DNA from: a virus
DNA: 61,708 bases
Virus record (IMG/VR): IMGVR_UViG_3300047457_001340
Location: 1 to 61,708 of that record
Strand: one strand, 5' to 3'
Under the pieces are notes generated by a model, which had not been told where the DNA came from, searched no databases, and worked only from the letters and a program-made list of their open reading frames with translations. The position numbers and the translations under genes were made by a program. Positions 241-38,799 of this stretch are shown here, in pieces (position 1 is the first letter of the stretch; each line of letters opens with the position of its first letter).

Positions 241-3200
241 CTATTTGATAGATTTAGCCTTTTTGAGAATTTCCTTGGCCCTCTCCACCTTAATTTGAGC
301 CTTGAGTAGGCGCATGGTGTAGAACGATAGCTGCTCTTTCTCAAACTCTTCTTCAGCCTTGGCGAGCCTTTCCTTAATCTTTTCAGGCTTAAGCTCAAGG
401 ACATGGCCGGGCAAAACAGCCTTATTGGACATGGGCTTCTGAAGAAGGGCGTCCTTCTCATGGGCGAAGGGCTTACCGCCAGCAATGTCGTTGCTTGCGC
501 TTTCCATCTCACCATTTCGCTCAAGCTTATTGATGTCTATGTTGCCCATTCTTTCTTCAAGGTTTTCACCCCCAGCACTGTAGCCAGTGAGCCTGCTCTG
601 GTGCTGACGCGCCATGTTCATATGGTGTTCATAATGGTCCATGTGCTTCTCTGCACTATTGTCATCGCTTGCAGGGCCATTGAACAGGTCGCCTTGGCCC
701 GACTGCTTCAGCCTTGAAGCCAGGTATTTATGAGCCCTCGCCCTCTTAAGGTGGGCGTCCATGGCCTCTATGTGATCTTCTGCCGTCTTGGATGTCTCTT
801 CCCTATTTAGGAATGCTGAGGTCATCTTGCTTGGGACAGGAAGGGTGTTTCCGGGCTGGGGGGTAAAGCCCAATTGCTTGGGGGCCTTCCTATAGGACTC
901 CTTGTAAACAGTGTGGACATTCTTCTCTCCAAGGAAATTGGCCTTGGATTCTGGGGAATGGGTGATAATTCTTTCCACGCCGTGCTTTTTGGCATGATTA
1001 ATGACAGCCGTGAATAGATTCGCTCTCCAGTCACCGTGCATGTCATTGATCTTATCCAGCGCAGCAAGCTTTTCTGCGTCAACTTTTTGACCAGCAGCTT
1101 CTGCAGCTTCGAGCTGAGGGCGAATACCTTTATTCTCAAGGTCCGACTGCATCTCATCCACCACCCAAGTTTTAGGGTCTGAGGTATCCACTCGGGCCCA
1201 GCCGATGGTATTGAAGTTGACGGGGTGCCCACTTCTTTTGGATGTCTCGGTGATGCGGTCAAAGACGTTCTTCAGGGCTGGGTCGGCGTCAATTTCTTTT
1301 AAGCTGTCTGGTGTATGGTCAAGGCGAAAAACAACCTGATCTCCGCCCGTGGAGTTTTGCATAGAATCACTGCCCCATCTATCGTATGAAAGGGCGTATT
1401 TCTTTTTGGGTGTGGCATCAATCTTGTCTTGGATATCCTGAGCAGAAAGCTTGGGTTTATTGAAGTGCTTTTTCCAAGCCTCCTTCAGGTCTGGGTAAGC
1501 TCTATTCATCTTGTCGATGCCGATAGAGCCGCCATTGGCTTCTGCGTGCTCCTTCAACATATTCAGATGATGGAGGTCTTGCCCAAACTCATGCTCATTC
1601 TGCCTATTTGGGATGGTTTCGTTTAGGAAGCCTGCGATCTTTTTTTCTTTGTCTGATGCTTCTGCATGAGCCCTTTCTCTTTCAGACATCAGCCTTCTGG
1701 CTTCTTTATTGTTGATGCTGTCGATCTTCCCACGAACATGGTTGGGCAAGTAGTCGTAATCGTGCATCAATTCATCCATTTTATCGTTAGCCCTACTGTC
1801 AGCGATTTCGCTCTCTCTGTCAGAGAGGCTTTCGCTATAGCCGTCGTAAAGAGAATCCCTTAGGCCCTCTCCTTCTGGGCTATCAACGAAATCGGACTGA
1901 CTGTCAGAAAATCTATCGTCGAATTTGGGGTGGTCGCTGATGCTATATTCGTCGTGGTTGGCGTAGTCAATTTCTTTGGGATTGTGCTTTTCGTCATGCT
2001 CGTCTTTGGCAGCATCATAATCAACCCAATCACTGTCATCCTCTGGGTCAAACCTGTGCTCTCTCTGAAGGTAGTTTGCTACCTCGTCTTTATTGGAGTT
2101 TTTCCAGTCCTTAAAAGCTTTGCCAGTGATTCTTCCATTATCATCTTTGATTTCAGAAAGAGCGTCCATGCCCCTCTCAAGGCTTGGGTCATGATTGGGG
2201 TTTTCTTCTTTCCAATCATGTTTTTCTCTGAGGTAGTCGTAATAGTCGTCTAGATGCCTTTCGGCTTGTCTGCTACTACGCCTTCCGCCGAATATGGGGC
2301 CGATATCATTAACATACTCACTGAACGGATATTCTTCCTCAGCCTGCTCTCTCGCTTCGCCGGAGTCGTAAACATCCTGAATGATGCTATCTCTATGCTC
2401 GTCTTTTAAGTGTTCTTTAAAGTTATCGAGATCATACCCATCATCTTGGTCGTCATTTTCCCACTTATGCCACATTTCCACGGCATGTTTTGGGTCTATG
2501 TGCTCGTTATTGAAGAGATTAAGCTTTGCGTTTTCTGTGCCGTGGCGTTTAATGTGCTCAGCCTGCTCGTCAGAAAGGTGCGGTGAACTTGCTAGGGTCT
2601 TCTCGTAGTCATAACCGTAGCCTTCGCCGCTTTTATAGTTGTCTTCGCCCCAGCTTGCCGTGGCAGGATCGAAGCCCTCCTCATCGGCATCGACATGCTT
2701 TCCGCCAGCGATGCCAAGCTTTTTGTCGATAAACTCTTTTCTTTTGTCCTCTGGAAGCTTGGAAAGCAATCCATTTAGGGTGTATTTGTTGCTGGGGACA
2801 CCCTTATCCAAGTGTTTTAAGATAGCGTCTATGTCTTGGTTTTTTTCGTGAGCCAAGGCTTTGGCTTGAGTGTCTAATGGGACATTCTTTTGGCTGGCTA
2901 GATAGCCGACGCTATCCTGAGACACGTCTGGGTGATTCAAAGCCTCGTCTAGAATTTGTCTTTTGGAATATTCCCCAACATTTTCAGCCTTATGGGTGTG
3001 CTTAATGATTTTATGGAGCTGATCTGGGGTGACACTCTTGTTTCGGACAAGAGCCATCAACTCATCTGAATCCAAGGTTTTGTTTAAAACATGATCTACC
3101 AGCTTATCATCGACATTGGCCAGTCTTAAAAACTTGTCAGCATCATGTCCCGGCGACCCACTGTGCTTCTTTCTGAGCGCCTCGTATATTTTCTTGTTGT

Positions 3201-3399
3201 TTGCCGGGGTATTGTGCTCAGACTTTTGCCAACGCAAATCACTATTGTTGCTATCATCATACCAGTCAAACTCATGAGCCTTATGGCCGTATGCTCCTGT
3301 GAGGAGATTGACATACTCCTCTTTGGTGAGTCCATTTTTAATGTACTCATTGGCTGCCTCTTTATCATCTCCATTTAGGATTCCATGTACCTTAACCAC
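241..3399 (-). CDS. Giant modular virion-type protein with EMQSD domain
   Basis: A 1052-residue hydrophilic protein rich in Asp, Glu, His and Tyr. Residues 100-200 look like short helical repeats, 240-560 are very acidic, and 670-855 form a distinct domain with VVDEMQSD, DWRANLF and ERIITHSPESK. I recognise this layout from the (E)EIQSDW domains of phage and plasmid polyvalent proteins, whose activity is not established. The C-terminal 80 residues are charged coiled coil. The start is GTG, overlapping the stop of the upstream palm-domain gene by 8 nt, so the two are probably translationally coupled. Its size and place at the end of the neck/fibre gene run suggest a protein carried in the particle; that is inference. 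Confidence 0.7.
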   Translation of the reverse strand: MVKVHGILNGDDKEAANEYIKNGLTKEEYVNLLTGAYGHKAHEFDWYDDSNNSDLRWQKSEHNTPANNKKIYEALRKKHSGSPGHDADKFLRLANVDDKLVDHVLNKTLDSDELMALVRNKSVTPDQLHKIIKHTHKAENVGEYSKRQILDEALNHPDVSQDSVGYLASQKNVPLDTQAKALAHEKNQDIDAILKHLDKGVPSNKYTLNGLLSKLPEDKRKEFIDKKLGIAGGKHVDADEEGFDPATASWGEDNYKSGEGYGYDYEKTLASSPHLSDEQAEHIKRHGTENAKLNLFNNEHIDPKHAVEMWHKWENDDQDDGYDLDNFKEHLKDEHRDSIIQDVYDSGEAREQAEEEYPFSEYVNDIGPIFGGRRSSRQAERHLDDYYDYLREKHDWKEENPNHDPSLERGMDALSEIKDDNGRITGKAFKDWKNSNKDEVANYLQREHRFDPEDDSDWVDYDAAKDEHDEKHNPKEIDYANHDEYSISDHPKFDDRFSDSQSDFVDSPEGEGLRDSLYDGYSESLSDRESEIADSRANDKMDELMHDYDYLPNHVRGKIDSINNKEARRLMSERERAHAEASDKEKKIAGFLNETIPNRQNEHEFGQDLHHLNMLKEHAEANGGSIGIDKMNRAYPDLKEAWKKHFNKPKLSAQDIQDKIDATPKKKYALSYDRWGSDSMQNSTGGDQVVFRLDHTPDSLKEIDADPALKNVFDRITETSKRSGHPVNFNTIGWARVDTSDPKTWVVDEMQSDLENKGIRPQLEAAEAAGQKVDAEKLAALDKINDMHGDWRANLFTAVINHAKKHGVERIITHSPESKANFLGEKNVHTVYKESYRKAPKQLGFTPQPGNTLPVPSKMTSAFLNREETSKTAEDHIEAMDAHLKRARAHKYLASRLKQSGQGDLFNGPASDDNSAEKHMDHYEHHMNMARQHQSRLTGYSAGGENLEERMGNIDINKLERNGEMESASNDIAGGKPFAHEKDALLQKPMSNKAVLPGHVLELKPEKIKERLAKAEEEFEKEQLSFYTMRLLKAQIKVERAKEILKKAKSIK

Positions 3400-4789
3400 G
3401 TTTTGTCATCTCCAGCATGATTCTGCGAACATATTTGGGGTCCATATTGTTTTCGCGGGCATACTTATCAGCAGCCTTGTAAACCTCACTCACCTGATCT
3501 CTGGACCTATCAATCCTCATTTGGCGTTCGTCCGTTGGGAATTCGTCTTGATCTTCTTGGGGGGCTTCTTGCTCTTGCGGTGCCTCTTCTTGTTGTTGTT
3601 CTTGTTCAGGGGCTTCCTGTTGAGGTTGGGCAGAGTCTTGCTCTGGAGCCTCTTGTCCTTGGGCGTAGGGGTCTTGGCCTTCTTTTAGGGCTTCTGTGTT
3701 CTGATTGGGCTCTCTTAATGCCACCTGCATCTTGGCGGAGTCGGTCGTGTCCTTGTCCTTTAGGCGCATCTCGATTTCTTGGTTGGTGGAGTCGTCATAG
3801 GTGACTACTTCGCCTTTACCCCTGAGCTTGCCTAAAGTTTTGGCACGGGTGGATTCACTGATCTTTTTGCCGATGCCAATGGTCGCGGTGACATTAGCTC
3901 TAGTGACATAATCTTCTTGTAGGTTTTGGATGAAATTAAGAGCTGTAGATGGGAGCTTGGCCATCATTTCGGTGCCATTGGCGGTGAGGATGGTGCCGCC
4001 CATTTGAATCACCCAAGCTTTAAAAGCCTCTTGGCCAGCATTAAGGCCTTCTGATCTGGCAATCAGCTTAGCCTCATCGTCTTGTAGGGCGGTGCGATCA
4101 AAGGTGTCAACGGAAGAGGTTTTTTCTAGGTCTGCCTCGGCAACATGATTTACAACATAGTCATGGTATTCATTTGGGGACATTGAGCCTACAATACCTG
4201 AGTAATGGTGAAGTCCCGCATATTTAAGAGTCTTAACTGCGATATGCTGCTTGTCTAGCTCACGGTCCTCAAGCGTATTCAGAACCCGCATCGCCTTCTT
4301 ATGGTCTGGGTGTTTAGAAACACTGATTTTTAGGTTACTTAAGCCATCTTCCGACTTAAAGTAGGCCTTGGTTTCCTTCTCTGCCTCGGTCTCCTTATTC
4401 TCTTCACTGAGCTTCTTGACCTGAGCTTCTACTTCTTCACTGTATTCGACAATCTTGTCTTTGCCGGTGAGCTTAGCACCAATCAGGGCCGTTTCACCGT
4501 GTCTCAGTGTGGTCCCAACGCCAACAGAGAGGGTGAAGCCTGTCTTTTTGGCATAGGCCGCCCTCAGCTCTTCAAGCTTTTTGGTTTCAATATCTTTGAA
4601 ATAGAATCTTGCTTCATCTCCGCCGTAGGAGATCATTTCGCCGCCATTGGCCTTAACCCAATCGGCAATGAGGGTTTCGCCCGCCTCAATGATGTTGGCG
4701 ACTTCCTTCACCTTGGCGGGGTCATCGGACATCACTGCCCTTCCAACTCTACTTCCAGCATTGTCTGCATCGACTGAGCAAAACTTCAT
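3392..4789 (-). CDS. Tandem GGDEF/Cas10-type palm protein (putative nucleotide cyclase)
   Basis: 465 residues. Residues 1-125 have the signature of the nucleotidyl-cyclase palm fold of GGDEF enzymes and minimal CRISPR polymerases: an initial SVDADNAG strand with two Asp, YGGDEARFYF at about 55-64, LSVGVG at about 88-93, then AKLTGKDKIVEY. Residues about 235-345 repeat the layout (FKAWVIQMGG, ANGTEMMAKL, TATIGIG, LGKLRGKGEVVTY), but the GGDE is replaced by NGTE, so the second copy should be catalytically dead. A Gln/Glu-rich linker (about 375-425) and a helical tail follow. Such active/inactive palm pairs resemble Cas10 architecture. ATG is chosen because GGAG lies 5 nt upstream; a GTG two codons earlier is the alternative. 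A diguanylate-cyclase-like role is possible, but no input or output domain is visible. Confidence 0.65.
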   Translation of the reverse strand: MKFCSVDADNAGSRVGRAVMSDDPAKVKEVANIIEAGETLIADWVKANGGEMISYGGDEARFYFKDIETKKLEELRAAYAKKTGFTLSVGVGTTLRHGETALIGAKLTGKDKIVEYSEEVEAQVKKLSEENKETEAEKETKAYFKSEDGLSNLKISVSKHPDHKKAMRVLNTLEDRELDKQHIAVKTLKYAGLHHYSGIVGSMSPNEYHDYVVNHVAEADLEKTSSVDTFDRTALQDDEAKLIARSEGLNAGQEAFKAWVIQMGGTILTANGTEMMAKLPSTALNFIQNLQEDYVTRANVTATIGIGKKISESTRAKTLGKLRGKGEVVTYDDSTNQEIEMRLKDKDTTDSAKMQVALREPNQNTEALKEGQDPYAQGQEAPEQDSAQPQQEAPEQEQQQEEAPQEQEAPQEDQDEFPTDERQMRIDRSRDQVSEVYKAADKYARENNMDPKYVRRIMLEMTKRG

Positions 4790-4791
4790 AA

Positions 4792-5211
4792 TCACTCCGT
4801 GTCCGCTGAGAGAGTCAGGTAAACCGTGTATGGGGCATCCATCATGGGCTCAGCCCCAAAGCTCTCATTGGCAGAACCAATCTGGGCGGTTTGCTTCACC
4901 GCTTCTTCAGATTGCTTCCTTTGTTGTACGCGATCAAGTAACTCCCTGAGAATCTGGATTGCTGGACCAATTCGGTCGTCTATAGTAGGATTTGGTTCCT
5001 GCTCCATGGACTCCTCATCGGCAATGGCCTGAAGGTCGCTCCCCATTCCATTAATGTAGTCGGCCACCTCTGGCAGCGTTGAGAACTGCGCCAGATTCAA
5101 GTCTTGGGCTACCTGTGGGTTTCCACCTACAACATCGAATCCGCCAGCCTCGTTTTCGGCAAGCATCACTAGGGGCTGTCCACTTTTTTGGCTGACAATC
5201 GTTAAGTTCAT
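4792..5211 (-). CDS. Hypothetical protein between virion genes
   Basis: 139 residues. The N-terminal 50 residues look like a small beta sheet (MNLTIVSQKSGQPLVML, then GGFDVVGG); the C-terminal part is helical and Gln/Glu-rich. I start it at ATG, five bases after the stop of the upstream gene and behind AAGAGATAG, rather than at a further-upstream in-frame ATG inside that gene. It ends 3 nt before the palm-protein start, so it belongs to the same transcript. Family not recognised. Confidence 0.65.
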   Translation of the reverse strand: MNLTIVSQKSGQPLVMLAENEAGGFDVVGGNPQVAQDLNLAQFSTLPEVADYINGMGSDLQAIADEESMEQEPNPTIDDRIGPAIQILRELLDRVQQRKQSEEAVKQTAQIGSANESFGAEPMMDAPYTVYLTLSADTE

Positions 5212-5215
5212 GAAA

Positions 5216-6934
5216 CTATCTCTTTTTAATAATCTGAGCGGCCTTGCGTTTGATATCAATGATGAAAGCTTCCCTGCTCTCATCATCCCACTTCTTGTCG
5301 AAGGAGAGTTTTAAACTCTTTTTTACCGAATCAAATTTCATCTGTGGTTTTGGGAGGCCTGTGTAGCAATCGCAAAAGATTTCGCCACTGCCACAATCTT
5401 GACAGTCACCTTGCTCCTCATCCATACTCTTAGCTAGGTCTCTGGATGAGATTGATACTTGGGCGCTTTTTTTGATCTCATTGAACTGTGGCAGCTGTTT
5501 AATCTTGCCAGACTTCAATGATTCGAGGGCGTGGTTTTTTAATGACTCAAGTTCCTCATTGAGATCTGAGTAGTCAATGTGTTCAGACAATCTGTTTTTG
5601 AGGTCCTTGATTTTGACGCCCAGTTCTTTTCTTTGCTTGCCTGCCTCTACTAAGTCATCTTTATGGGATGGGGACTCAAGCACATTGATAAGCCGTTTGT
5701 GCTCATTGGTAAACTCTTTCTCGTCCATTTTAATGGATTTACCCATAAATTCCTTAACCTTCCCGTGCTTGATGAAGTGCTCGGTGTCTGCTGAGACATT
5801 AGAGAAATCATCGCCACTTTCCCATCCGTCATGATGAACCATGAAAGATGTGTGGGGGTCGTAAATAGAGTCTTTAATCATGTTGCGAAGAGTTTTATTG
5901 GCGGGATGCTTGGGGTTGTTTAAAACACTCTCTGCCGCAGCAACCTCGTTACCGCCCGCAGATCCTACTTTGATATACCCTCTTTTCAATGCTTCAAATT
6001 CGTCACCCTCTTTATTGGCGATCCAGTCTTCATGGTATTCATTTGGCTTAAGGCGATTAAACTTTCCATCAGGAGAAATCCATCCATGGAAAGAGTCATT
6101 GCCTGAGCCATAGGTGTGCTTTTTGATGTCGTTTGTGGGCTTCAGCTGCTGAAGCGTTACTCTCATTGCTTCGGGAGGGGTGCCGTGAACATATACCATT
6201 TTGGTTTTGTGCTTATTTGCTTCATCAATGGCTTCGTTCAATTCTGCGTTGGTGGGGGAATGAAGATGCTTGCCGATCATGTGGACATGATCTTCGTGAG
6301 TGGCATGAAAAACATGAACACCCTTCATGGTGCCATAGTAGTGGGGATGTCTGTCGTCTGAGCGCTCCAGTGGCTCCGGGTTCACTGCAAGCTGAAACTT
6401 ATGGCCTGAGGGAAGGAGAGTGAAGTGGTTGTCGTAGTGGCCTCCGTGGGAAACGCCTACACCCGGCTCACTCTTTCTACCATCTCCAAACACAAAATGA
6501 TTTGTGAGATATGACGAATGAAGGACGGATGTTTGGTTATATTTGTTTCCAAGGGCTTCAAGCTTTTTCTTGTTCTCTTCAGAGCCGTCATGGGGCACCA
6601 TGTAGCCCTTTTCTTCGGTGTCATATTTGCCGTGAGTCTCAACTGGCTTCAGTCCATGGGCAATAATATCTTGTTTCAGCTGTCGATGAGCCTCTTCGTT
6701 GTGCTCTCCACCAGTCTTTTGCGCAGAAAGGCAGGTGAAATGGTCTGGTAAAACAAGATCTCCTTTGGGCTTCACTTCTCCCGACAGGTGCTTGTGATAG
6801 TGGTCTGGGAGTGGCCAGTGGTCGAGACCTTTAGGTGCGCCCGACTTATCCCAATAGTCGCTTACAGCTTTTGTTTTGGGATCAAAGTCTGGTGTTATAG
6901 TGGATTTGGACAGGGTCTTGTGTTCTTTGGCCAT
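5216..6934 (-). CDS. Modular protein with one GWISPDG domain
   Basis: About 572 residues. Residues 70-190 (LSAQKTGGEHNEEA, HGKYDTEEKGYMVP, YNQTSVLHSS) resemble the spacing of DUF3293-like phage proteins, a tentative link. Around 285-400 lies FHGWISPDGKF, LKPNEYHEDWI, GYIKVGSAGG and NPKHPANKTLR, clearly homologous to two domains in the 986-residue protein. A predicted coiled coil follows, then a small cysteine cluster (CQDCGSGEIFCDC) near the C-terminus that could bind zinc. Start: ATG with GGTGG upstream, preferred over a GTG eight codons earlier. Probably a virion component, judged only from its neighbours. Confidence 0.65.
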   Translation of the reverse strand: MAKEHKTLSKSTITPDFDPKTKAVSDYWDKSGAPKGLDHWPLPDHYHKHLSGEVKPKGDLVLPDHFTCLSAQKTGGEHNEEAHRQLKQDIIAHGLKPVETHGKYDTEEKGYMVPHDGSEENKKKLEALGNKYNQTSVLHSSYLTNHFVFGDGRKSEPGVGVSHGGHYDNHFTLLPSGHKFQLAVNPEPLERSDDRHPHYYGTMKGVHVFHATHEDHVHMIGKHLHSPTNAELNEAIDEANKHKTKMVYVHGTPPEAMRVTLQQLKPTNDIKKHTYGSGNDSFHGWISPDGKFNRLKPNEYHEDWIANKEGDEFEALKRGYIKVGSAGGNEVAAAESVLNNPKHPANKTLRNMIKDSIYDPHTSFMVHHDGWESGDDFSNVSADTEHFIKHGKVKEFMGKSIKMDEKEFTNEHKRLINVLESPSHKDDLVEAGKQRKELGVKIKDLKNRLSEHIDYSDLNEELESLKNHALESLKSGKIKQLPQFNEIKKSAQVSISSRDLAKSMDEEQGDCQDCGSGEIFCDCYTGLPKPQMKFDSVKKSLKLSFDKKWDDESREAFIIDIKRKAAQIIKKR

Positions 6935-6981
6935 AAGGTAATTATCCACCGAAAACACTAGAATTGACTTATGGTTACGCC

Positions 6982-7794
6982 TTAAACAGAGCCATCTTTA
7001 GGCTCTGGTCTGTCGGAAGGACCCACCTTGTCGTAGGGGTCGTGTGGAATGAAGTCCTTTCGAACAACTGCCAACTGAGGGAAGCGCTGTTGAATAGAAT
7101 TTCCATCTTTATCAAGGGTTTGCGTAGCCCTAATCTGATGGGGCAGGCCTATGACGGTGAAAACTGGTCTGGTGTAATAGTTGACCGAATAGATAATCCC
7201 ATTACCTGTGACAGGGTCATATCCGGGCCTTTCTCCAACCCACTCTAAGTACCCTTTTTCATTAATAATTACATCGACCCCAACCCGATACTGGACGCCA
7301 TAGGCATCCATAATGAAGTCAATACTTTTAGCTGGAAAGTGGAGCTTGTCGATTCCTGTCTGACTATGCTCTACAAGCTGATAGTAGCGAACCGTGTAGT
7401 CTGGCACCAAGATCTGATCAAAAAACTGAACATCAAGCTCCGTACCGTCATCGTAGGTAGAGGGAAGGACAATCGTGGCCTGATCGATGTCATAAGAACC
7501 ATTCATCACGAATTGGCGCTGATTACTATTGCCCTGAAAGGCTCCAATAAAAGCCCGCTCGCCGTAGTAGATAAAGCCGTTGTGGCAATCGGTACATCCG
7601 GGATCATGGTCCCCATCATGAATACTTAAGCGCCTCGGACATGGCACAGGTCTTGAATGCACCATGCGAATGCCCTTACTTTTAATCAGCTCATTGAAGG
7701 AATCTGGGTTCATTCCTGCCTGAGGCTGGCCACTGGGCTGCTGACCAAGGAGCTTGGATGGGAGCTTAATGTTTGGAATTTTTGGCTGCGACAT
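6982..7794 (-). CDS. Putative virion neck/tail-completion protein
   Basis: 270 residues with a Pro/Gln-rich N-terminus, then VPCPRRL and PGCTDCHNGFIYYGE (possible CxxC zinc site), followed by a beta-rich body with many Tyr, Val and Ile. The C-terminus is polar and disordered. The gene overlaps the end of the muramidase gene by 29 nt and sits between that gene and the 572-residue modular protein. Its place downstream of the head-tail connector is typical for a neck or tail-completion protein, but no family motif is visible. Confidence 0.55.
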   Translation of the reverse strand: MSQPKIPNIKLPSKLLGQQPSGQPQAGMNPDSFNELIKSKGIRMVHSRPVPCPRRLSIHDGDHDPGCTDCHNGFIYYGERAFIGAFQGNSNQRQFVMNGSYDIDQATIVLPSTYDDGTELDVQFFDQILVPDYTVRYYQLVEHSQTGIDKLHFPAKSIDFIMDAYGVQYRVGVDVIINEKGYLEWVGERPGYDPVTGNGIIYSVNYYTRPVFTVIGLPHQIRATQTLDKDGNSIQQRFPQLAVVRKDFIPHDPYDKVGPSDRPEPKDGSV

Positions 7795-9124: not shown

Positions 9125-9538
9125 TTATAACTCACCATAAACCGTAATAGCTCTGGGCAAGATGGCGATCTTCTTATTGGAGCCCTCGGAAACCTCTACC
9201 TTGAGAGTGCTAGACACTAAGGCCTCTGTTTCTGAGGAGGTTAGGGGAATTTTGTAAATTGAATTGTCACCAACGAATGCCACCACGGCGGATCTGGTAA
9301 GGGTTGGATTTGATCCTACTCTGGTATTATTTGGTCCAGCAGACACTTCATCCATTCTAGGAATAACAAGCTGAACGGTCGCTCCGGGGGAAGGAATGTA
9401 CCTTAGGCCGTTTTGGTCCTGATCCACAAGCTGGACAAAAATTTCAGCTGTTTCTCCCCTGACAATTTCAACACTTGAAACATGTTTGAAACAATTTGCT
9501 GTCGCACCAGAATTTAATAATTTTAAACCAAGTCTCAT
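9125..9538 (-). CDS. Beta-rich virion protein
   Basis: 137 residues of alternating polar and aliphatic residues (VEIVRGETAEIFVQLVDQD, then ATVQLVIP, KVEVSEGS and AITVYGEL), an Ig-like or BppU-type beta-sandwich pattern common in phage neck, baseplate and fibre proteins. It starts 2 nt after the connector gene ends, and the pair is probably co-translated. No catalytic motif. Role inferred from fold pattern and position only. Confidence 0.6.
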   Translation of the reverse strand: MRLGLKLLNSGATANCFKHVSSVEIVRGETAEIFVQLVDQDQNGLRYIPSPGATVQLVIPRMDEVSAGPNNTRVGSNPTLTRSAVVAFVGDNSIYKIPLTSSETEALVSSTLKVEVSEGSNKKIAILPRAITVYGEL

Positions 9539-9540
9539 AA

Positions 9541-10365
9541 TTAAAACGCCGTGAATTGAAGGTCCGTTCCGTAGTGGGCCTTCAACTGCATCGTGAGCTT
9601 ATCTCTCTCTGCTGTTAGCTCCTGAAGCCTTTGAGAAAGCCACTGAGGTCCTGCATTGCCAGTGCTTTGAGAAAGGCCGTCGATACCTACGCCAAACGAG
9701 TTAATGGGGAAAATGGCGGGCCCCATCTGTGAAAGAACAGCAATGGCGGCCATAACGCCAATGCAATGATTAACAATGTGTGGAATCTTATCGTTCTCAA
9801 ATCCTGCAACATAAGTGATGCGCCAGACATTGGGCCACATCTGCTGCCCACCCAGTGCCAATGCGCGGCCAGTGATGGAGAAAACAAAGTTGGCATCGGC
9901 GTTATTGATGGAGCCTGAGGTGGGGACAATGCGGATTAGGCCATTATCTTCTTGGGTGGTAACCCAATCGGTGGGGTAGGAGTATTCCTGTCCTTCCGCT
10001 CTTCCCGGCCAGAGGGCCTCAAGCTTCTCTACCTTCAGAAGAGGCCAGCGTGCCAGCCTGTGCGGAGAAAACTCCATGTCATCTGGACGCTTGAAGTCAA
10101 ACTTCTCTACATTTCTAACTGGGCTTACTGGGATTCTGATGGAAGATTCAAATTCAGACACTGCAGTGAGAATGAAATCCTGCAAGTCTTCGTCATCAAG
10201 CTCGTCATCTGTCATTGCTGCCTTGAGCGGCACTCCAAACAGATACTTCTTCTTGAACTTCTTTGGGCTCAGAAGCGGTCCCACTCTTGTGAAGCTGGGG
10301 TCTCCATTGCCTTGGTTTAGGGGTGTTGGCTGCCCAATCACTGGGCTGTCCTTTGAATCTGCCAT
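9541..10365 (-). CDS. Head-tail connector protein (gp6-like)
   Basis: 274 residues. KYLFGVPLKAAMTDDELD, LQDFILTAVSEFESSI, RIPVSPV and later WRITYVAGFENDKIPHIV with a C-terminal helix pair match the pattern I know for gp6-like/adaptor proteins of long-tailed phages, which bind the portal and form the neck ring. TACAAT ends 6 nt before the ATG. Because YLFGVPL precedes the internal Met, I keep the long form, which overlaps the subtilase C-terminus by 161 nt in another frame. If the internal Met (10215, preceded by AAGG) were used, the overlap would shrink to 11 nt. Confidence 0.65.
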   Translation of the reverse strand: MADSKDSPVIGQPTPLNQGNGDPSFTRVGPLLSPKKFKKKYLFGVPLKAAMTDDELDDEDLQDFILTAVSEFESSIRIPVSPVRNVEKFDFKRPDDMEFSPHRLARWPLLKVEKLEALWPGRAEGQEYSYPTDWVTTQEDNGLIRIVPTSGSINNADANFVFSITGRALALGGQQMWPNVWRITYVAGFENDKIPHIVNHCIGVMAAIAVLSQMGPAIFPINSFGVGIDGLSQSTGNAGPQWLSQRLQELTAERDKLTMQLKAHYGTDLQFTAF

Positions 10366-11047
10366 ACCTATATTGTACTAGCAAACCCTTAGGGCCATAA
10401 TTGGCCTTAAGCCAATTTTCGGCCTCTTTACAAGTAGATGTGGGGTGCTCTTGGAAGTAGCGGATGGCAACTCCACCCATTCGGGCTGCGCTGAATGAGG
10501 TGCCTCCTGCATCTTTGGGCGACCTTTCTAGGTAGGTGTCGCCAGCGTTGGCTATGGGGTCCTTGTTGCCCTTAATGGTTGTAGATACAGAGACAAGGCA
10601 GGGCAGGTCATACTTGGCTGGGAATCCGGGCTCGTCTAGGCCCTCATTTCCAGCTGCCACCACCACGAGTATGCCGCTGGAGGTGGCTCTTTTGATTGCA
10701 GAAAACTCAGCAATATCGGGTTTTTGTCCATTAAGGGAGAGGGATATAACTTTGGGTTTTTTGTCAGTAGCCTCTTCAATTGCCTTGGGAAGGTCCGAGA
10801 TATTATGCCAAATAACTTGCTCAGCCCTCACTGGCTTGACATCCTCAATGCTGAGTTGGTCATCGAGGGATTGGGCGACCTGTGTCCCATGGACATTCCA
10901 GCAGGCCTCTGGCCTATTGATGGGCATGTTCAAATAGCCAGTGTGTGACTTGGTGTTTCCCGTATCAACCTGAATGATTTCTATACCGTCAGCTAGGGCT
11001 GAGGTAGATAAAGACAGTGCTATTATGTATTTGACCCAATTGCTCAT
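10205..11047 (-). CDS. Secreted subtilisin-like serine protease
   Basis: 280 residues. A signal peptide (IIALSLSTSALA) is followed by a minimal S8 peptidase: Asp in IEIIQVDTGN, His in WNVHGTQVAQ, oxyanion Asn in VVAAGNEGLD and nucleophile Ser in GGTSFSAARMGG. The core closes near QYRYGRF, after which about 50 Pro/Gln/Ser-rich residues overlap the connector gene in another frame. The presence of all catalytic elements and a signal peptide implies an active periplasmic or surface protease. ATG chosen; a TTG two codons earlier exists. A TACAAT element sits 5 nt upstream and there is no Shine-Dalgarno. Confidence 0.85.
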   Translation of the reverse strand: MSNWVKYIIALSLSTSALADGIEIIQVDTGNTKSHTGYLNMPINRPEACWNVHGTQVAQSLDDQLSIEDVKPVRAEQVIWHNISDLPKAIEEATDKKPKVISLSLNGQKPDIAEFSAIKRATSSGILVVVAAGNEGLDEPGFPAKYDLPCLVSVSTTIKGNKDPIANAGDTYLERSPKDAGGTSFSAARMGGVAIRYFQEHPTSTCKEAENWLKANYGPKGLLVQYRYGRFKGQPSDWAANTPKPRQWRPQLHKSGTASEPKEVQEEVSVWSAAQGSNDR

Positions 11048-11059
11048 GTACAATTGTAC
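11048..11059 (-). promoter_or_regulatory. Palindromic TACAAT start-site element
   Basis: A perfect 12-bp palindrome, GTACAATTGTAC, directly abuts the ATG of the subtilase gene. It contains TACAAT ending 5 nt before the start codon, so it could be both -10 element and operator. No ribosome-binding site separates it from the ATG, consistent with a leaderless transcript. Confidence 0.45.
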
Positions 11060-11084: not shown

Positions 11085-11420
11085 TTAGGATTCTTCGGTG
11101 AGATAGAGATAAAGGAGGGCAGAGCTTGCCACAATGTATTCGTGGCTGCCTGAATTAAGAAATGTCTTTTCGTTTGGTAGAATGGGAATGGCTTCTGCTG
11201 GGTCTATTGATGGGGTGACGGTGTTGTCGCCAAAGCGGACGAATTCGGTAGTGCCTGAGGGGTTGTAGACGACGCAGGTTCTTGATTTATTTACCCTTTT
11301 TGCAACACTAAAGGTTCCTGCTGGGTCCATGGCAATGCCAGCATCGGCCTGACGGTAGACCTGAGATCTGTCGTCGTAGGTGACTTGATTGATTTTTGCT
11401 GGGTCAGTGACTTTCTTCAT
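11085..11420 (-). CDS. Small beta-rich virion protein
   Basis: 111 residues. The sequence (TCVVYNPSGTTEFVRFGDN, TVTPSIDPAEAIPILPNEK, SHEYIVASSALLYLYLTEE) has the feel of small phage decoration or fibre-associated proteins that recur between fibre and lysis genes. It overlaps the end of the holin-like gene by 17 nt. It is not membrane-spanning and has no enzyme motif. Confidence 0.55.
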   Translation of the reverse strand: MKKVTDPAKINQVTYDDRSQVYRQADAGIAMDPAGTFSVAKRVNKSRTCVVYNPSGTTEFVRFGDNTVTPSIDPAEAIPILPNEKTFLNSGSHEYIVASSALLYLYLTEES

Positions 11421-15789: not shown

Positions 15790-18746
15790 TGTTTAAACTT
15801 TCCGTGTTTAGCAAAGTGATCAACACTCACCCCCACATGAGACTCGGATGGAGTATGGGTGTCGCCATAGTGGTAGATGTCGCCGTTCATAGTTTGACCG
15901 GGATAAGCATCGCCAAAAATCTGACGAAGCTTCAGGGTGGCTGGGTGCCTCTTATTTGCGATAATGGGGTGAGCAGCGCTAAAGCTTGCGTCTCCGCCGT
16001 GGCCAACAGCAATCCAGCCAGAGTCAAGAGCCGCTGTGGCATTCTCTCCGGTTTTTTCGGCAATCCAATCCATGTGAGACTCATTGGGCTTCATTGGGTG
16101 AAAGTCACCCTCTGGAGATACCCAACCGTGAAGCTTTCCAGATTTACCATCGAAGATGTGCTTATTAAGCTTATTAGTAATTTCTTGAGCCTTTTTTAGC
16201 TTAGATGGGATGCTCTCATCAAACCAGTCTGCCGGGTTTTCTTTAGGAGCTTCTTTCTTGCCGCCCTCAATCACTTTGATTTGTGATTGAACCTTTTTGT
16301 CAGCTTTCTTCTGCTGAAGGCGCTTTAATTGAGCCTCACCCTCTTCTTGGGAAATCTCCACGCCCGTATCTGGGTTATGCCAATTATTGTCGGCAAAACG
16401 CTCCAGCTGAGATTGGGTCATGTTCTTGTGGGGAGACTTGACCTTTTCAAGCTCCTCGCTCTTGTTCATTTGTCCGCTGAGCTTGTTAAACTTCTGAACA
16501 TAGGGGTGGGAGTCGATCTGTTCTTGGGTCGCATTCTTGGCGGCTGTAATGCCATTGCGCCAAGCGTAGGCCATTCTAGGCTTATCGCCACCAAACACAT
16601 GATGTAGCCTGTCCCAGTGGTGATTAGCTATGTCCGCCTCGATGCTGGGGTTATTATTGAGGTGTTGCGTGATCTGGTCACTGGACATGGAAAGGATGTT
16701 TGAGTGTCTCTCCATGAGCTTTGGGTTTTTCTTAATAGCCTCTTTCACCGTAATGGGCATAAGTCCAGTAGAGCCTGCTGCTGTATCTCCAGCATTCAGG
16801 CCTACGGTCGTCTTCTGATGCTTCTTATTTTTTCCGTCAGACGACTCAATAGAGGCAATGTGCCTGAGACTGCCTTTTAGCTCTACCTTGGGGGACACAC
16901 GGGCGGGAACCACGCCTGCACTGGGTGAGGTTGGGGTGGCCATGGCGGTGGCAGATAAGATGGCTAGACCCGCTGCAGCATCCTTCAATGCCCCCTTATC
17001 TAGCTCACTCTTGTCTATATTGGCACTCTTGATCTTGCCGTATTTGGCAAATGTATTGGTGTCGGCTTCATGGAATTGCCAATTATCACCCTGCTCCGGC
17101 TTAATAGTGACACCAAAGGTGGGGCCCCAATGTTTGTGAGCAAGCTCCCTCAGCTTTAGGGTTGCTGGGTGCCTTCTGTTGCCAATAACAGCGTGGTGGC
17201 CAGAAGCCTCTTCCATTCCGGCATGGCCAACCGATATCCACCCCTGATCATAAGCATCCGAAATGGAGCTGATACCATGGCCATTGCGTATAACATCCAA
17301 ATGGTCCTCATGGGGCTGCATGTGGATGTAATCGCCTTCCGGCGTAATCCACCCATGAACCTTGGCGGGAGTGCCTAAGTGGTAATCAACTTTGTCTAGC
17401 GATTCGGGTTTGACCGCCTGCCTTCTGGCAAGCTCCGTCTTTTTATGCTCTATCTCTTTGGGGTCCACGAAATATGAGCGCGGCGGTTTTGAATACTCTT
17501 CAATCTGATCGGCCAACATGGTGGTTGGAGTAGAGGCTGTGTAATCTTTAATTCCATGTTTCTCATATAGGTTTCTAAGATGTATTTTAAGGTCCTGATT
17601 ATCAAATAAATCCAGAGTAGATGAGGCGCGGCTTCTTTTAGCAAATCCGCCCATATCCATGATTTTGAGTTCGCCCTTTGCATTTCTTCCTAATTGAATG
17701 TTATCAATGGGTTTATGCCCGGCAACAAATGCATCATGAAGGCTTTCTCTGACATGAGCAAGCTCGTGCTCGTTTAATTCTCCGTCTTTAATGGGGGTGA
17801 GAGATTCTCTAGCCAGATAAAGCTTATCCCCTTTTCTCCAAGTCCCGTGATGTTTGGGAGTGAGGGGATTTCCTGCCATGCCGGTGATGGCATCGTGCTC
17901 ACTCATGATGTCTCCGCGAGCTTCAGCCGGGGTTTTCTTGGGATTAAACTTGTTATATGGGGTAGTTTTGGAAACCTTTACAACTACATCTGGGGTGGCC
18001 TGATAAACATGGCCCTGATGTCCACTTCCTAAGTATTTCCAATCGTGAGTCTGAAATAATGGAGTTCCCCAATCAGCGCCTTTCTCAAGCTCTTCGGACT
18101 TGCCGAATTTGCGGTTGGGCTGGTTCCAGAAAGCCTCGCCATCTGGCTCCTGTATATCAGAGCGGATTATCTTTAACCCGCTTTTCTTCTCGGCTAACAC
18201 ATACATAGCCGATCCAAGCCCCTTCCGTTGATGCTCTTCGTCTACCCACACGGAGAAATTGCCAGTACCATCTATGGGGTGTAGCGCAGAGCCCTTTTCT
18301 CTAAAAAGAGCCTCTCCGACCTCATTGCCATTTGAGTCATGGGCTGATAGGCTGTGTATTTTCTTTCCTTCTCCTGAATCATCCTTCCAAGAGCGGTAGT
18401 AAATTTTATACCCCTCCTTCTTCCAATCCCCATTCTTGCCCTTGTCGAGGTCCTCGGCCTTATTCAAAAGGCCTGAGGCCTTCATGGACTCAACGACTTG
18501 GTCCATCACCTCTTTGGTAGGCTCAGCTCCCATAGCCTGCATGACAGCCTTAAAGCGGTCAGCCTTATTTGGAATCTGAGAGACCTGCTGAACCAGCTCA
18601 GGTGGGAGCTTCTCTGCTTTAGGGTCTAAGATCTGAACTAGGGCTGAGACCTGAGAAAACGTAGCGGGGTCCTCAAGGTCCGATTCCTTGAGGTTTGCGG
18701 CTAGGTTTATAAGCAGTTCTACAAGCTCGTTTTGGGGGATGGGCAT
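15786..18746 (-). CDS. Polyvalent protein: GNAT, kinase-like, muramidase and two GWxxPEG domains
   Basis: About 986 residues from the ATG (a TTG six codons earlier is possible). In order: helical region 1-100; GNAT acetyltransferase-like region about 115-215 with VWVDEEHQRKGLGSAM; kinase-like domain about 235-390 with GSGHQGHVYQA loop, VVVKVSK, an EHDAI helix, NIQLGRNAKG and IMDMGGFAK in place of HRD and DFG; GWITPEG domain about 460-575; hydrophobic Ala-rich stretch; SLT-like muramidase about 626-760 (ASIESSDG, GLMPIT, AYAWRNG); coiled linker; GWVSPEG domain at the C-terminus. Modules are joined by KSEELEK-type linkers. Likely packaged in the particle and released in the host, by analogy to other giant polyvalent phage proteins. 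Confidence 0.75.
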   Translation of the reverse strand: MPIPQNELVELLINLAANLKESDLEDPATFSQVSALVQILDPKAEKLPPELVQQVSQIPNKADRFKAVMQAMGAEPTKEVMDQVVESMKASGLLNKAEDLDKGKNGDWKKEGYKIYYRSWKDDSGEGKKIHSLSAHDSNGNEVGEALFREKGSALHPIDGTGNFSVWVDEEHQRKGLGSAMYVLAEKKSGLKIIRSDIQEPDGEAFWNQPNRKFGKSEELEKGADWGTPLFQTHDWKYLGSGHQGHVYQATPDVVVKVSKTTPYNKFNPKKTPAEARGDIMSEHDAITGMAGNPLTPKHHGTWRKGDKLYLARESLTPIKDGELNEHELAHVRESLHDAFVAGHKPIDNIQLGRNAKGELKIMDMGGFAKRSRASSTLDLFDNQDLKIHLRNLYEKHGIKDYTASTPTTMLADQIEEYSKPPRSYFVDPKEIEHKKTELARRQAVKPESLDKVDYHLGTPAKVHGWITPEGDYIHMQPHEDHLDVIRNGHGISSISDAYDQGWISVGHAGMEEASGHHAVIGNRRHPATLKLRELAHKHWGPTFGVTIKPEQGDNWQFHEADTNTFAKYGKIKSANIDKSELDKGALKDAAAGLAILSATAMATPTSPSAGVVPARVSPKVELKGSLRHIASIESSDGKNKKHQKTTVGLNAGDTAAGSTGLMPITVKEAIKKNPKLMERHSNILSMSSDQITQHLNNNPSIEADIANHHWDRLHHVFGGDKPRMAYAWRNGITAAKNATQEQIDSHPYVQKFNKLSGQMNKSEELEKVKSPHKNMTQSQLERFADNNWHNPDTGVEISQEEGEAQLKRLQQKKADKKVQSQIKVIEGGKKEAPKENPADWFDESIPSKLKKAQEITNKLNKHIFDGKSGKLHGWVSPEGDFHPMKPNESHMDWIAEKTGENATAALDSGWIAVGHGGDASFSAAHPIIANKRHPATLKLRQIFGDAYPGQTMNGDIYHYGDTHTPSESHVGVSVDHFAKHGKFKQ

Positions 18747-23075: not shown

Positions 23076-25661
23076 TTAACCCGAAGCCTGAGCAGGCTCC
23101 TCCTCCTTATCGTCTACCCGGCCTGCTGGACCCATCTCAAGATCTGAGAGTTCCATCTGCTGTGGCTCTCCACGGGGGCCGGGAAACTGTGTATAAACAA
23201 TACAACGATTGTAGTCGGTGACACATTCAACAGCCACTGGACAGCGGCCATTTCGCACCTTGTCTAACAAGAAGACGATTCTGTTTTTCTTGGCATCATC
23301 CTCGGAGCGGTTAATCGTGATGACATTGGAGGCCTTCCTGACAATCCCAAAGCTTTCAGCCACATCGGACATCCTGAGGTAGTCGGTGCCTTTTTTAGAG
23401 AGCTGGTGTCCAAGACGGTTCACTTGAGCCCCACCAGCACCTGCCACATTCAGCTCTAAACAAAGCTGCTTCAGCTCTGAATAGACAAACTCTTGAAGGA
23501 GTCGGGTGTTGTCGAGGGACTTGAATCTTGAGGTGGTCAAGCATTGGCCGTAATCACACAAGAAAAGCTCGAAGGGCCACTCTTTATGGAGCATTCTAGC
23601 CGCCTGCTGCACCTGCTCCACGGTAGCTTCGTGGCTGTACATGTACCTGATCTTAACGTTCTCTTTTAGAAGCTCGTCGGCAATCTTTAGGGCTTCCTTC
23701 TCGTCTTGATTGAGCAGGGTGTATGGGGCCATAAGCTTGGTGAAGGGGACGCCGCTGAAGCGGGATAGGAACCTCAGTTTGGTGGGAAGCTCTTCGTCCT
23801 CATGGACGGTTAGAAACACCTTTTTGCCTGCATTGACTGCAAAGTAGGCCAGATTGGGCATGAGCATGCTGTTGTGTGTTAAGATACCGTTGGCAACGAA
23901 AAGGTTGTCTCCGTCTACCGATAGGTCAAATGTTTCTTGTTCTCCGACATATTCAATTGAAACAACCTCATCTCTATGAAATGAATCGTCAAAATTAAGC
24001 CCATCAGATTCCGCTGTATTGGCAAGAATCCTCCACAAACCTGAGTTGGGGCGCTTTTTTTGGAGCTTTTTCTTTGTTTCAGATGGCAGCAGGTTAGAGG
24101 CTTCGTCGGAGTAATACACCCACTCCCCACCAAGCTTAGAATTTTCTCTACCCACAGCTTTTTCAAGACGACCGTCGCCCCATTTATCCGTCAAACTAAG
24201 TTCTTTTATAAGCCTTCTTGATGACCTTCCGGTTACAAAGATTGAATATACCCCATAGTTTTCCAATGTTCTGTTTTTAAGTTTGACTGTTTTGTGCGAT
24301 GATTTAACATTGGACACATATCCAAGACGCAATAACACTTGTTGAAGGTATCGAACTTGGTGTTCATAATGAAGCGATAAAACTACAGACGACCCCCTCT
24401 TATCCACTGTTCCATCTGCATCCATAATACCAGCAATATAAGCTGCTGCAGATTCCTTGGACCAAGATAAAACATCAATCAAACATTTGTTTTCTTTGGT
24501 TCCTGTCCTAAGACCAAACGCTTCTAGCTGATCTGCAATAAAAGCATTAGCCCAAATAGACTCGCCATTATCGCCCTTTTTGTGCGTTCTTGGATTGTTG
24601 AGTCCCATATTTCCAAGAACTCTTAATAACTTATTTTTCACCGAACTATCTTTATGAATAGCCCAACTGAGATATCGAGTGTTGAAACTATTTTTAAAGT
24701 AGCTGCCGTCGCCAAAAGTAAATCCCAATAACCAAGCGATGTCATTGGGTATTTTTTTTGTTCCAATCCAGTTATCAATGGGAACAACTACAGGATCTCC
24801 AACGCTAATGTCCCTAAGTTGTTTTTGCTCTATTCCATCTCCGCTATCCAGCGCGTGTATGTGATCAAGTGTTGAATCAATATACAGGCCACTGCTGAGT
24901 GTCATACGGTAAAGTGGTTTAATGCCATTTCTATGAACAGCAAGAATCTTTCTTTTCGCGTTGTAGCCAACAACATAATTATGTTGAGATAGCGTTATAT
25001 CCTTAATTTTAACCAAACCCTTATCAGTAGGGACCAACGAATCCCCGCCTAAGCATTTTCCCGTATTCGACCCCCCAAGAAAAGTGGTCCAAGTCTGCGG
25101 GAAAAGTCCGCCGTTCATGGCGGCATCGATTGCGGCAATGCCCGTTGGGATTGCATTTTGAGCCTGAGCAGAGGCCAAATCGATCATGGAGACATGGTCC
25201 CCGAAGGAGGCGACCTTTTCCTTCTCAAAGTCTACCTTGGAGATGAGGTCGAGGTGTTTCTTGGTGATTTCATAAGCATGCTCCCGGTTGCCTGAGTTGT
25301 AGAGTGGGGCTGCCTCTTTGTAGGCTAAGATAAAGAGGCTTGCTCGAATGAAGCCCGTCAGCTCTTTTTTAAGGTAGTTCTCATCCGGTTCACTCTCTTG
25401 GATCTTCTTAAACTCGGCATAATACTTGGAGGCGTCCGTTGCTCCTTGTTTATTGATCTCGTTGGAGAGTGCCGATCGGGTAGGAAGGCTGTTGTGCTCT
25501 GTGTATAAGTCCTTAAATTTACGAAAGAACCACCGCAGCTCTTGAGAGAAGTAGCCCTCTTCTAAGTAGGCCACGCACCGGGCGGCAAAGCGTTCGTCCT
25601 GTAACATCTGCTTAATAACCTGACGCTGGAAGTCTAGACCAAATTTTTCATTGCCGCTCAT
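23076..25661 (-). CDS. dnaB: Replicative DnaB-type helicase, intein-interrupted
   Basis: 861-residue precursor. Extein: N-terminal helical domain 1-180, then the RecA-like motor with TFLGGSNTGK (Walker A) at 193-202, resuming SMLMPNLAYF at 598, FLCDYGQCL (Walker B), AGAGGAQVN and RKASNVITINR. Removing residues 203-597 leaves 466 residues, the normal DnaB size. It unwinds the phage fork ahead of the phage-encoded primase and DnaE. CCGTATAAC ends 8 nt before the ATG and there is no good Shine-Dalgarno. Divergent from the 199-residue plus-strand gene. Confidence 0.92.
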   Translation of the reverse strand: MSGNEKFGLDFQRQVIKQMLQDERFAARCVAYLEEGYFSQELRWFFRKFKDLYTEHNSLPTRSALSNEINKQGATDASKYYAEFKKIQESEPDENYLKKELTGFIRASLFILAYKEAAPLYNSGNREHAYEITKKHLDLISKVDFEKEKVASFGDHVSMIDLASAQAQNAIPTGIAAIDAAMNGGLFPQTWTTFLGGSNTGKCLGGDSLVPTDKGLVKIKDITLSQHNYVVGYNAKRKILAVHRNGIKPLYRMTLSSGLYIDSTLDHIHALDSGDGIEQKQLRDISVGDPVVVPIDNWIGTKKIPNDIAWLLGFTFGDGSYFKNSFNTRYLSWAIHKDSSVKNKLLRVLGNMGLNNPRTHKKGDNGESIWANAFIADQLEAFGLRTGTKENKCLIDVLSWSKESAAAYIAGIMDADGTVDKRGSSVVLSLHYEHQVRYLQQVLLRLGYVSNVKSSHKTVKLKNRTLENYGVYSIFVTGRSSRRLIKELSLTDKWGDGRLEKAVGRENSKLGGEWVYYSDEASNLLPSETKKKLQKKRPNSGLWRILANTAESDGLNFDDSFHRDEVVSIEYVGEQETFDLSVDGDNLFVANGILTHNSMLMPNLAYFAVNAGKKVFLTVHEDEELPTKLRFLSRFSGVPFTKLMAPYTLLNQDEKEALKIADELLKENVKIRYMYSHEATVEQVQQAARMLHKEWPFELFLCDYGQCLTTSRFKSLDNTRLLQEFVYSELKQLCLELNVAGAGGAQVNRLGHQLSKKGTDYLRMSDVAESFGIVRKASNVITINRSEDDAKKNRIVFLLDKVRNGRCPVAVECVTDYNRCIVYTQFPGPRGEPQQMELSDLEMGPAGRVDDKEEEPAQASG
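23871..25055 (-). mobile_element. LAGLIDADG intein in DnaB at GK^S
   Basis: 395 residues. Splice block A starts with Cys (CLGGDSLVPTDKGLVKIKDI), the N3 block has STLDHIHALD, and the C-terminal block is NLFVANGILTHN followed by Ser. A homing endonuclease is inserted, with the two LAGLIDADG helices AWLLGFTFGDG and YIAGIMDADG, both keeping the acidic residue. It splits the Walker A Lys from Ser, so unspliced helicase cannot bind ATP. The DNA looks visibly more AT-rich than the flanking extein, pointing to separate ancestry. Confidence 0.93.
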
Positions 25662-38231: not shown

Positions 38232-38799
38232 CTTCTTCTTCTCCTACAATCTTATCTACCAATCCCAGTTCTTTAGCGTGCTCTGCGGAAATGTAAGTGT
38301 CTAAGGCGCACTTCTTTTCCCAAAATTTGGTGTCCTTACCCGACCTCTCGGCGTAGATTTGGTACATCATTTTTCTAGTAATTTTAGATTGCTCAGCCTG
38401 CGACTCGAATGATTTGGGGGTTAGCGATGCTTCTTCGTGGCCATCGTGAATCATAATGAAGGCGTTGGGGTGGATAATTCTTTCATCTGCGGCTTGAAGA
38501 ACAATAGAGCCCATGGAGAATGCCGACCCAACTACCTCTATTGTAACGTGACATGGGCAGGCCTTGATCGAGTCATAGATAGCCATGCCAGAATAAAAGC
38601 ACCCGCCAAAGCTATTCAAGACAACATGAATGGGAGCCTCTGGGTTTTGCTTGCTGAGTAGATGGAGGGCTGTGATGAACCGTTCGGCACTCACATGATC
38701 AATCCCTCCCTCTAAAGAGTCCATCAAGAATATGGTTCTTGATTCCAGATGGATCTTATAATCAAAGGCCCGGTCAATGCTTTCTCGATTGAATCTCAT
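38224..38799 (-). CDS. ClpP-like serine protease
   Basis: 191 residues with ClpP-fold motifs: IHVVLNSFGGCFYSGMAIYD, catalytic Ser in VGSAFSMGSIVLQAA, catalytic His in FIMIHDGHEE, and Asp in LDTYISAEHAKELGLVD. Phage ClpP-type proteases either process head proteins or act as free peptidases; because a separate S78 prohead protease exists here, a non-maturation role is likely. Starts with ATGA overlap after the zinc-ribbon gene. Confidence 0.85.
   Translation of the reverse strand: MRFNRESIDRAFDYKIHLESRTIFLMDSLEGGIDHVSAERFITALHLLSKQNPEAPIHVVLNSFGGCFYSGMAIYDSIKACPCHVTIEVVGSAFSMGSIVLQAADERIIHPNAFIMIHDGHEEASLTPKSFESQAEQSKITRKMMYQIYAERSGKDTKFWEKKCALDTYISAEHAKELGLVDKIVGEEEDG

Follow-up and report, generated by a model that had tools for sequence, protein, structure and literature searches.

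The 61,708-nucleotide stretch of viral DNA analysed here (the window; IMG/VR record IMGVR_UViG_3300047457_001340) encodes a protein of the mCpol family (minimal CRISPR polymerase, PF18182), and the gene lies amongst virion genes at 3392-4795 on the minus strand. In the available text of PMC12657218 and PMC12657230, mCpol is described as an immune synthase of bacteria and archaea. The available text of these two Panoptes papers does not mention phage-encoded mCpol, and literature term searches, with partial coverage of subscription papers and bioRxiv, returned no other account of one. What is new here is the carrier and the place in which a known family of enzymes is found, and probably a role opposite to the known one. 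The features of the window that bear on this are as follows.

241-3399, minus: 1052-aa protein directly downstream of the mCpol gene, near the contig end; no family match
3392-4795, minus: two-domain mCpol protein; open frame, PF18182 79 bits, E 4.4e-22
3395-3709, minus: acidic Gln/Glu-rich disordered stretch (residues 361-417) and helical pair (residues 419-464), delimited by pLDDT
3797-4108, minus: mCpol copy 2, metal site lost; 27.6 bits, Ser/Asn (ARSEGLNAG) kept
4442-4783, minus: mCpol copy 1, complete catalytic site; 59.4 bits, OptS fold with TM 0.91
about 4613-4621, minus: copy 1 catalytic-site residues G57-D58-E59
about 4763-4771, minus: copy 1 catalytic-site residues D7 and D9
4792-5286, minus: 164-aa protein overlapping the start of the mCpol gene; no family match
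5216-6958, minus: 580-aa protein with an S-AdoMet lyase domain (6473-6709) and a c6-like C-terminus (c6 profile, E 1e-4)
6982-7794, minus: virion structural protein, cluster c8, phrog_1004 (8e-16); syntenic with relatives
9125-9538, minus: cluster c12 protein; syntenic with relatives
9541-10365, minus: head-tail adaptor, cluster c13 (phrog_772, 5e-29; phrog_442); query for related phages
11085-11420, minus: cluster c10 protein, an mCpol neighbour in relatives

Family and fold of the window protein

The frame stops at 3392 and starts at either ATG 4789 (465 aa) or GTG 4795 (467 aa). The curated cut-off of PF18182 is 26.4 bits, and mCpol was the only significant family in the Pfam scan of the whole protein, in which GGDEF was unlisted up to E 10. 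A preliminary description, made from the letters alone and naming no strand, had read two GGDEF/Cas10-type palms in this protein, and this reading stands: copy 1 has YGGDE and LSVGVG, copy 2 has NGTE and TIGIG, and in a DNA-level search both halves separately exceed the cut-off. Against a profile built from the mCpols of phage relatives, moreover, copy 1 reaches 157 bits (E 8e-48) and copy 2 reaches 90 bits (E 4e-27). A chance match or a frame artefact is excluded by the two independent family matches together with synteny.

An AlphaFold2 model of the whole protein was built with 47 sequences. Its pLDDT is 93-98 in copy 1 and mostly 80-93 in copy 2, falls below 50 over the disordered stretch and returns to 86-97 in the C-terminal helical pair. 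The best six matches of a PDB fold search were all OptS/mCpol structures (9pd0, 9mnr, 9nwn; TM 0.88-0.91 by target length), which superpose with an rmsd of 1.2-1.5 Å, and copy 1 gave the best of these (TM 0.91, rmsd 1.2 Å). GGDEF (5euh, E 4e-4) and Csm1/Cas10 (6ifl) trail OptS with far weaker scores. The phage mCpol family profile, searched against PDB sequences, found OptS at 8e-19 (9nwn) and 2e-18; the next entry is a GGDEF protein at 0.03. Since OptS tops both the fold and the profile searches, the palm is of the mCpol type specifically.

The window protein has the palm fold and the GGDE motif in common with GGDEF diguanylate cyclases, but Pfam GGDEF is unmatched, the profile E value is only 0.03 and there is no sensor domain. 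An ordinary diguanylate cyclase was dismissed on these grounds, in agreement with the preliminary description, which had noted the lack of any sensor or effector domain. Host c-di-GMP, which it had offered as one possible target, is not supported, the family being so much closer to OptS than to GGDEF.

The phage group and exchange of the mCpol domain

The window is part of a virus record with an SPO1-like major capsid protein, portal, maturation protease, terminase, head-tail adaptor and DNA polymerase. The virion gene cluster named in the preliminary description is borne out by the adaptor, the phrog_1004 protein, the major capsid protein, the portal and the terminase. The whole window protein found no match in 50,697 named phages (tblastn) or in a single-sequence search of viral contigs, and an initial DNA-motif scan recovered only the one contig already known. 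That first IMG/VR relative, obtained by an alignment-based scan, is a contig with a 41% identical mCpol domain beside a tail sheath gene. Scanning IMG/VR with the head-tail adaptor of the window gave 13 contigs, with mCpol over the cut-off in 7 records, and scanning with the alignment of phage mCpols gave 31 loci, several of them on contigs of 155-182 kb. The mCpol-bearing family consists of uncultured SPO1-like myoviruses of 150-182 kb. Myxococcus phage Mx1 (OR576727) is a cultured member of the group, and its mCpol is degenerate and below the cut-off. A relative by major capsid protein (G001, 67%) has no mCpol, but the part of the window concerned has no recognisable counterpart in its record, which therefore does not count as evidence of absence. 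In a tree the phage mCpols form one clade against three bacterial mCpols, a sample too small to show when, or from which branch, the domain was acquired. No relative emerged when 85,000 bacterial genomes were scanned twice with mCpol patterns, which were phage-biased and insensitive for a rare family.

In these phages the mCpol domain forms the N-terminal part of a protein encoded in the neck/tail module. The gene order is fixed in about 30 phages: c8 - c10 - c6 - mCpol gene - c5 - c4 - ... - tail sheath - tail tube, where c6 is the gene directly ahead of mCpol and c4 is tail terminator-like. The window has c8, c10, c12, c13 and the c6-like C-terminus in common with these relatives; its contig ends just past the mCpol gene, so that c5 and c4 are off the contig. 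The C-terminus of the window mCpol protein shows no recognisable homology to the C-terminal helix that the relatives share, and does not match the profile of that helix.

A scan with the c4 protein gave 80 loci, and in 56 of them the whole gene was covered, with c6 in front and the conserved C-terminal helix behind. The mCpol domain is present in 51/56 of these. The remaining five (L088, L091, L098, L147 and L148) retain the gene and its C-terminal helix, and no other mCpol was found in their records, two of which are contigs of 166 and 171 kb. Moreover, the near-identical phages L056 and L047 show 48% identity between their mCpol domains, against 96% over the remainder of the protein and 100% in the neighbours c5 and c4; the exchanged segment extends from an HNH endonuclease gene to codon 92 of the mCpol gene. 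As the domain is absent from five loci and swapped between these two, the protein can perform its virion-gene function without it. Judged from these loci, mCpol is a cargo domain exchanged by recombination and not a structural necessity. The HNH gene borders the swapped segment in L056, which suggests that the exchange may be driven by homing.

Further features of the gene vary within the group. In L056 (302-1228), L067 (9052-9564) and L070, an inserted HNH-type endonuclease gene (cluster c29) separates c6 from the mCpol gene. Zinc-knuckle-like CPYC/CxYC repeats occur in the linker of the protein in L060, L064, L066, L068, L070, L088, L091, L098 and L147, and thus also in members without mCpol. 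The mCpol proteins of L069, L071-L076 and Mx1 have a common C-terminal ending, GKIKVxHxDGxxGWKxVxxGM...HPVSSRxP, which is possibly a targeting or processing signal.

The S-AdoMet lyase domain in the neighbouring 580-aa protein matches PF23780 with 28-31 bits at a cut-off of 28, together with DUF3293 and phrog_2226. Mx1 (38473-38742) and G031 (114975-115178) have weaker SAM-lyase matches, under the cut-off, at a distance of 3-4 kb from mCpol. Restriction and BREX are counteracted by phage SAM lyases, and an anti-CRISPR role has been proposed for a phage SAM-AMP lyase (PMC12255297). The window lyase is probably an anti-restriction or anti-BREX enzyme, or one degrading SAM-AMP, carried on the same late module. 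These lyases are, like the mCpol proposed here, phage enzymes acting on defence nucleotide signals or cofactors; their fold and chemistry differ from those of mCpol, of which the lyase domain is simply a neighbour. It seems that the late module in this phage group acquires enzymes directed at nucleotides involved in defence.

Elsewhere on the minus strand of the window, the DNA polymerase (54192-58562), the large terminase subunit (45640-48792) and a DnaB-like helicase (23076-25661) have an intein-bearing look, judged by shared matches to phrog_30356, phrog_9666 and phrog_21587 and by LAGLIDADG in the polymerase. A subtilase-like protease (phrog_3677, 3e-16) is encoded in an alternative frame at 10205-11053, minus, and shares about 160 bases with the beginning of the adaptor gene.

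The catalytic site and the second copy

Residues were counted in 48 aligned phage mCpols. D9 and G57 are present in all of them (48/48), D58 in 47/48 and D7 in 41/48, the exceptions at D7 being six Asn and one Ser. The sole member without D58 is Mx1, in which the metal site is altogether lost; GDE and D9 are retained in nearly all other members despite only 25-40% identity. In KpOptS, D6 and D57 hold two metals (available text of PMC12657218), and copy 1 of the window protein has D7 and D58 at these places. Four pairs allowed dN/dS to be computed for the mCpol domain: it is 0.04-0.08 in three of them and 0.42 in the fourth, whilst two further pairs had saturated synonymous sites. The three low values suggest that purifying selection acts on the domain and, together with the kept catalytic residues, favour a working enzyme in most members. 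Catalysis would be dispensable in some of the phages, since six have Asn for D7 and the site of Mx1 is gone. The position of the OptS base contact N34 is variable among the phage mCpols (Asn in 10/48), and therefore the product cannot be predicted from sequence.

The two copies in the window protein are unequal. In copy 2 the match leaves out profile positions 1-18, which hold strand 1 with its DxD; this motif is unrecognisable in copy 2, NGTE stands where copy 1 has GGDE, and Thr replaces D58. As far as the metal site goes, the second copy is thus dead, as the preliminary description had it. OptS active sites form between protomers, and base recognition in KpOptS involves S30 and N34 (available text of PMC12657218). 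At these positions copy 1 has A31 and E35, this Ala being unique among the 48 phage mCpols (Ser in 42), and the alignments show that copy 2 retains both Ser and Asn (ARSEGLNAG against ISNKLN in OptS). It is probable, in this one protein, that the copies have degenerated in a complementary manner, so that the metal site of copy 1 and the base-recognition residues of copy 2 would make a composite, Cas10-like active site. Because the residues lost from copy 1 persist in copy 2, the "dead" copy is probably not idle. Among the relatives, no second mCpol domain over the cut-off turned up in the same gene. A tandem DNA repeat was considered as the origin of the two copies and none was found.

Cas10 has one intact and one degenerate palm. 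The window protein resembles Cas10 (Csm1/Cmr2) in having two palms per chain, one with a GGD(D/E) metal site and one without. Unlike Cas10, it has no HD, Zn or D4, its intact palm comes first, and the similarity in sequence is far weaker. No HD or other Cas10 domains and no Csm/Cmr or CRISPR genes were found in the mCpol protein or the scanned window genes. The fused pair may show how a two-palm, Cas10-like enzyme originates.

A second palm, outside the mCpol gene, occurs in other members of the group. Mx1 has a separate GGDEF-like "nucleotide cyclase" (NGGDEF) at 17173-17904 (13722-14453 in L010), adjoining a giant prohead-protease gene and the major capsid protein gene. Weak matches to the mCpol profile were found in G031 (C1:137687-138019) and G003 (C1:2575-2763), within ORFs of 1473 and 989 aa, about 18 kb from the neck mCpol.

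Known systems and possible roles

OptS of Panoptes (9mnr, 9pd0, 9nwn) is the closest known system, with the same Pfam family, the same fold, metal Asp residues at the same places and a similar domain length. The phage gene differs in lying in a neck/tail module, in its long acidic linker and C-terminal region, in having two copies per chain and in its motif, which is GGDE as against AADG in OptS. Pfam scans of the direct neighbours found no OptE/S-2TMbeta or 2TM-CARF/SAVED effector beside mCpol. A phage-borne Panoptes operon was accordingly dismissed, the effector gene being absent and the neighbours being virion proteins or proteins of no family.

Polyvalent proteins offer a second comparison. 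GGDEF domains of such virion-delivered proteins are predicted to interfere with host nucleotide signalling (Iyer et al. 2017; available text of PMC5512222). The window protein resembles them as a nucleotide cyclase domain within a multi-domain protein of a phage with portal and terminase. It combines mCpol, a linker and a C-terminal anchor, portal and terminase are both in the window, and the cargo is gained and lost. The available text of Iyer et al. names GGDEF and RelA/SpoT domains and not a phage mCpol, and the window-type mCpol differs from polyvalent-protein cargo in being a recurrent passenger at one fixed position among the neck genes.

We give an even chance to the reading that the phage mCpol works as a nucleotide cyclase and serves against cyclic-nucleotide immunity, perhaps by holding Panoptes effectors in check. 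In the available text of PMC12657218 and PMC12657230, the mCpol product restrains the Panoptes effector, which fires once phage sponges deplete that product. Panoptes is the natural candidate target because the product of mCpol holds its effector off. The enzyme, whether synthesised late or delivered by the virion, would convert ATP or other NTPs into a cyclic dinucleotide during infection, and this would keep Panoptes-type effectors off when the cell's own pool runs low. Alternatively, the phage product might disturb CBASS or type III signalling. In the window protein, the metal site would come from copy 1 and the site of base recognition from copy 2, in the manner of two OptS protomers or the Cas10 palms. 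The full version of this reading, in which an OptS-like synthase on a virion-module protein is an antidote to Panoptes and the fused copies of the window share one site, is put forward tentatively, its likelihood being well short of even. The late position of the gene is odd for an anti-defence enzyme unless the protein is packaged, which the gene position is suggestive of.

The preliminary description had proposed that the protein makes or mimics a signal molecule, directed either at defence systems or at host c-di-GMP. The defence half of that proposal fits the conserved site, the exchangeable domain and the SAM-lyase nearby; the c-di-GMP half is not supported. If the reading as an anti-immune synthase is true, counter-defence would here add a signal rather than destroy one, which is the logical answer to Panoptes. 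The phage group moreover provides a natural set of variants, with the domain intact, D7 to N, dead, missing, swapped or duplicated.

An unlikely explanation is that mCpol has been exapted as a structural or nucleotide-binding part of the neck or tail, where NTP binding would act as an assembly switch with no signalling product. The fixed site among neck genes and the late-gene context are in keeping with this, as are the persistence of the Mx1 domain without a metal site and the six members with Asn at D7. However, the gene persists in five phages that lack the domain and close relatives swap it, which makes it dispensable for assembly, and GDE and D9 are retained in nearly all other members at such low identity. 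It is likewise unlikely that the cyclic nucleotide steers host or phage physiology rather than immunity, for instance lysis timing, biofilm, motility, c-di-GMP-like signalling or the blocking of competing phages. Phage polyvalent-protein GGDEF domains are indeed predicted to act on the host or on rival elements (available text of PMC5512222), and in Mx1 and G031 another palm, resembling GGDEF, is encoded close to the prohead protease. Against this, the family is OptS-like and not GGDEF-like, no receptor or effector domain lies nearby, and accessory presence and exchange resemble an arms race rather than core physiology. Least probable, and in our view very unlikely, is a decoy, catalytically slow or inactive, which would bind cyclic nucleotides or synthase subunits of the host as a sponge or hetero-oligomer poison: copy 2 and the degenerate Mx1 mCpol lack the metal site, and a foreign subunit could poison a host mCpol given the inter-protomer sites of OptS (available text of PMC12657218), but a decoy would need no metal site, and both Asp are kept in 41/48 and GDE in 47/48.

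Lastly, an OptS-like mCpol was observed on a Sulfitobacter plasmid (NZ_CP072616.1, 71912-75158; L158), with a small downstream gene and adjoining a DncV-like CBASS cyclase. This locus is likely a plasmid-borne Panoptes/CBASS pair.
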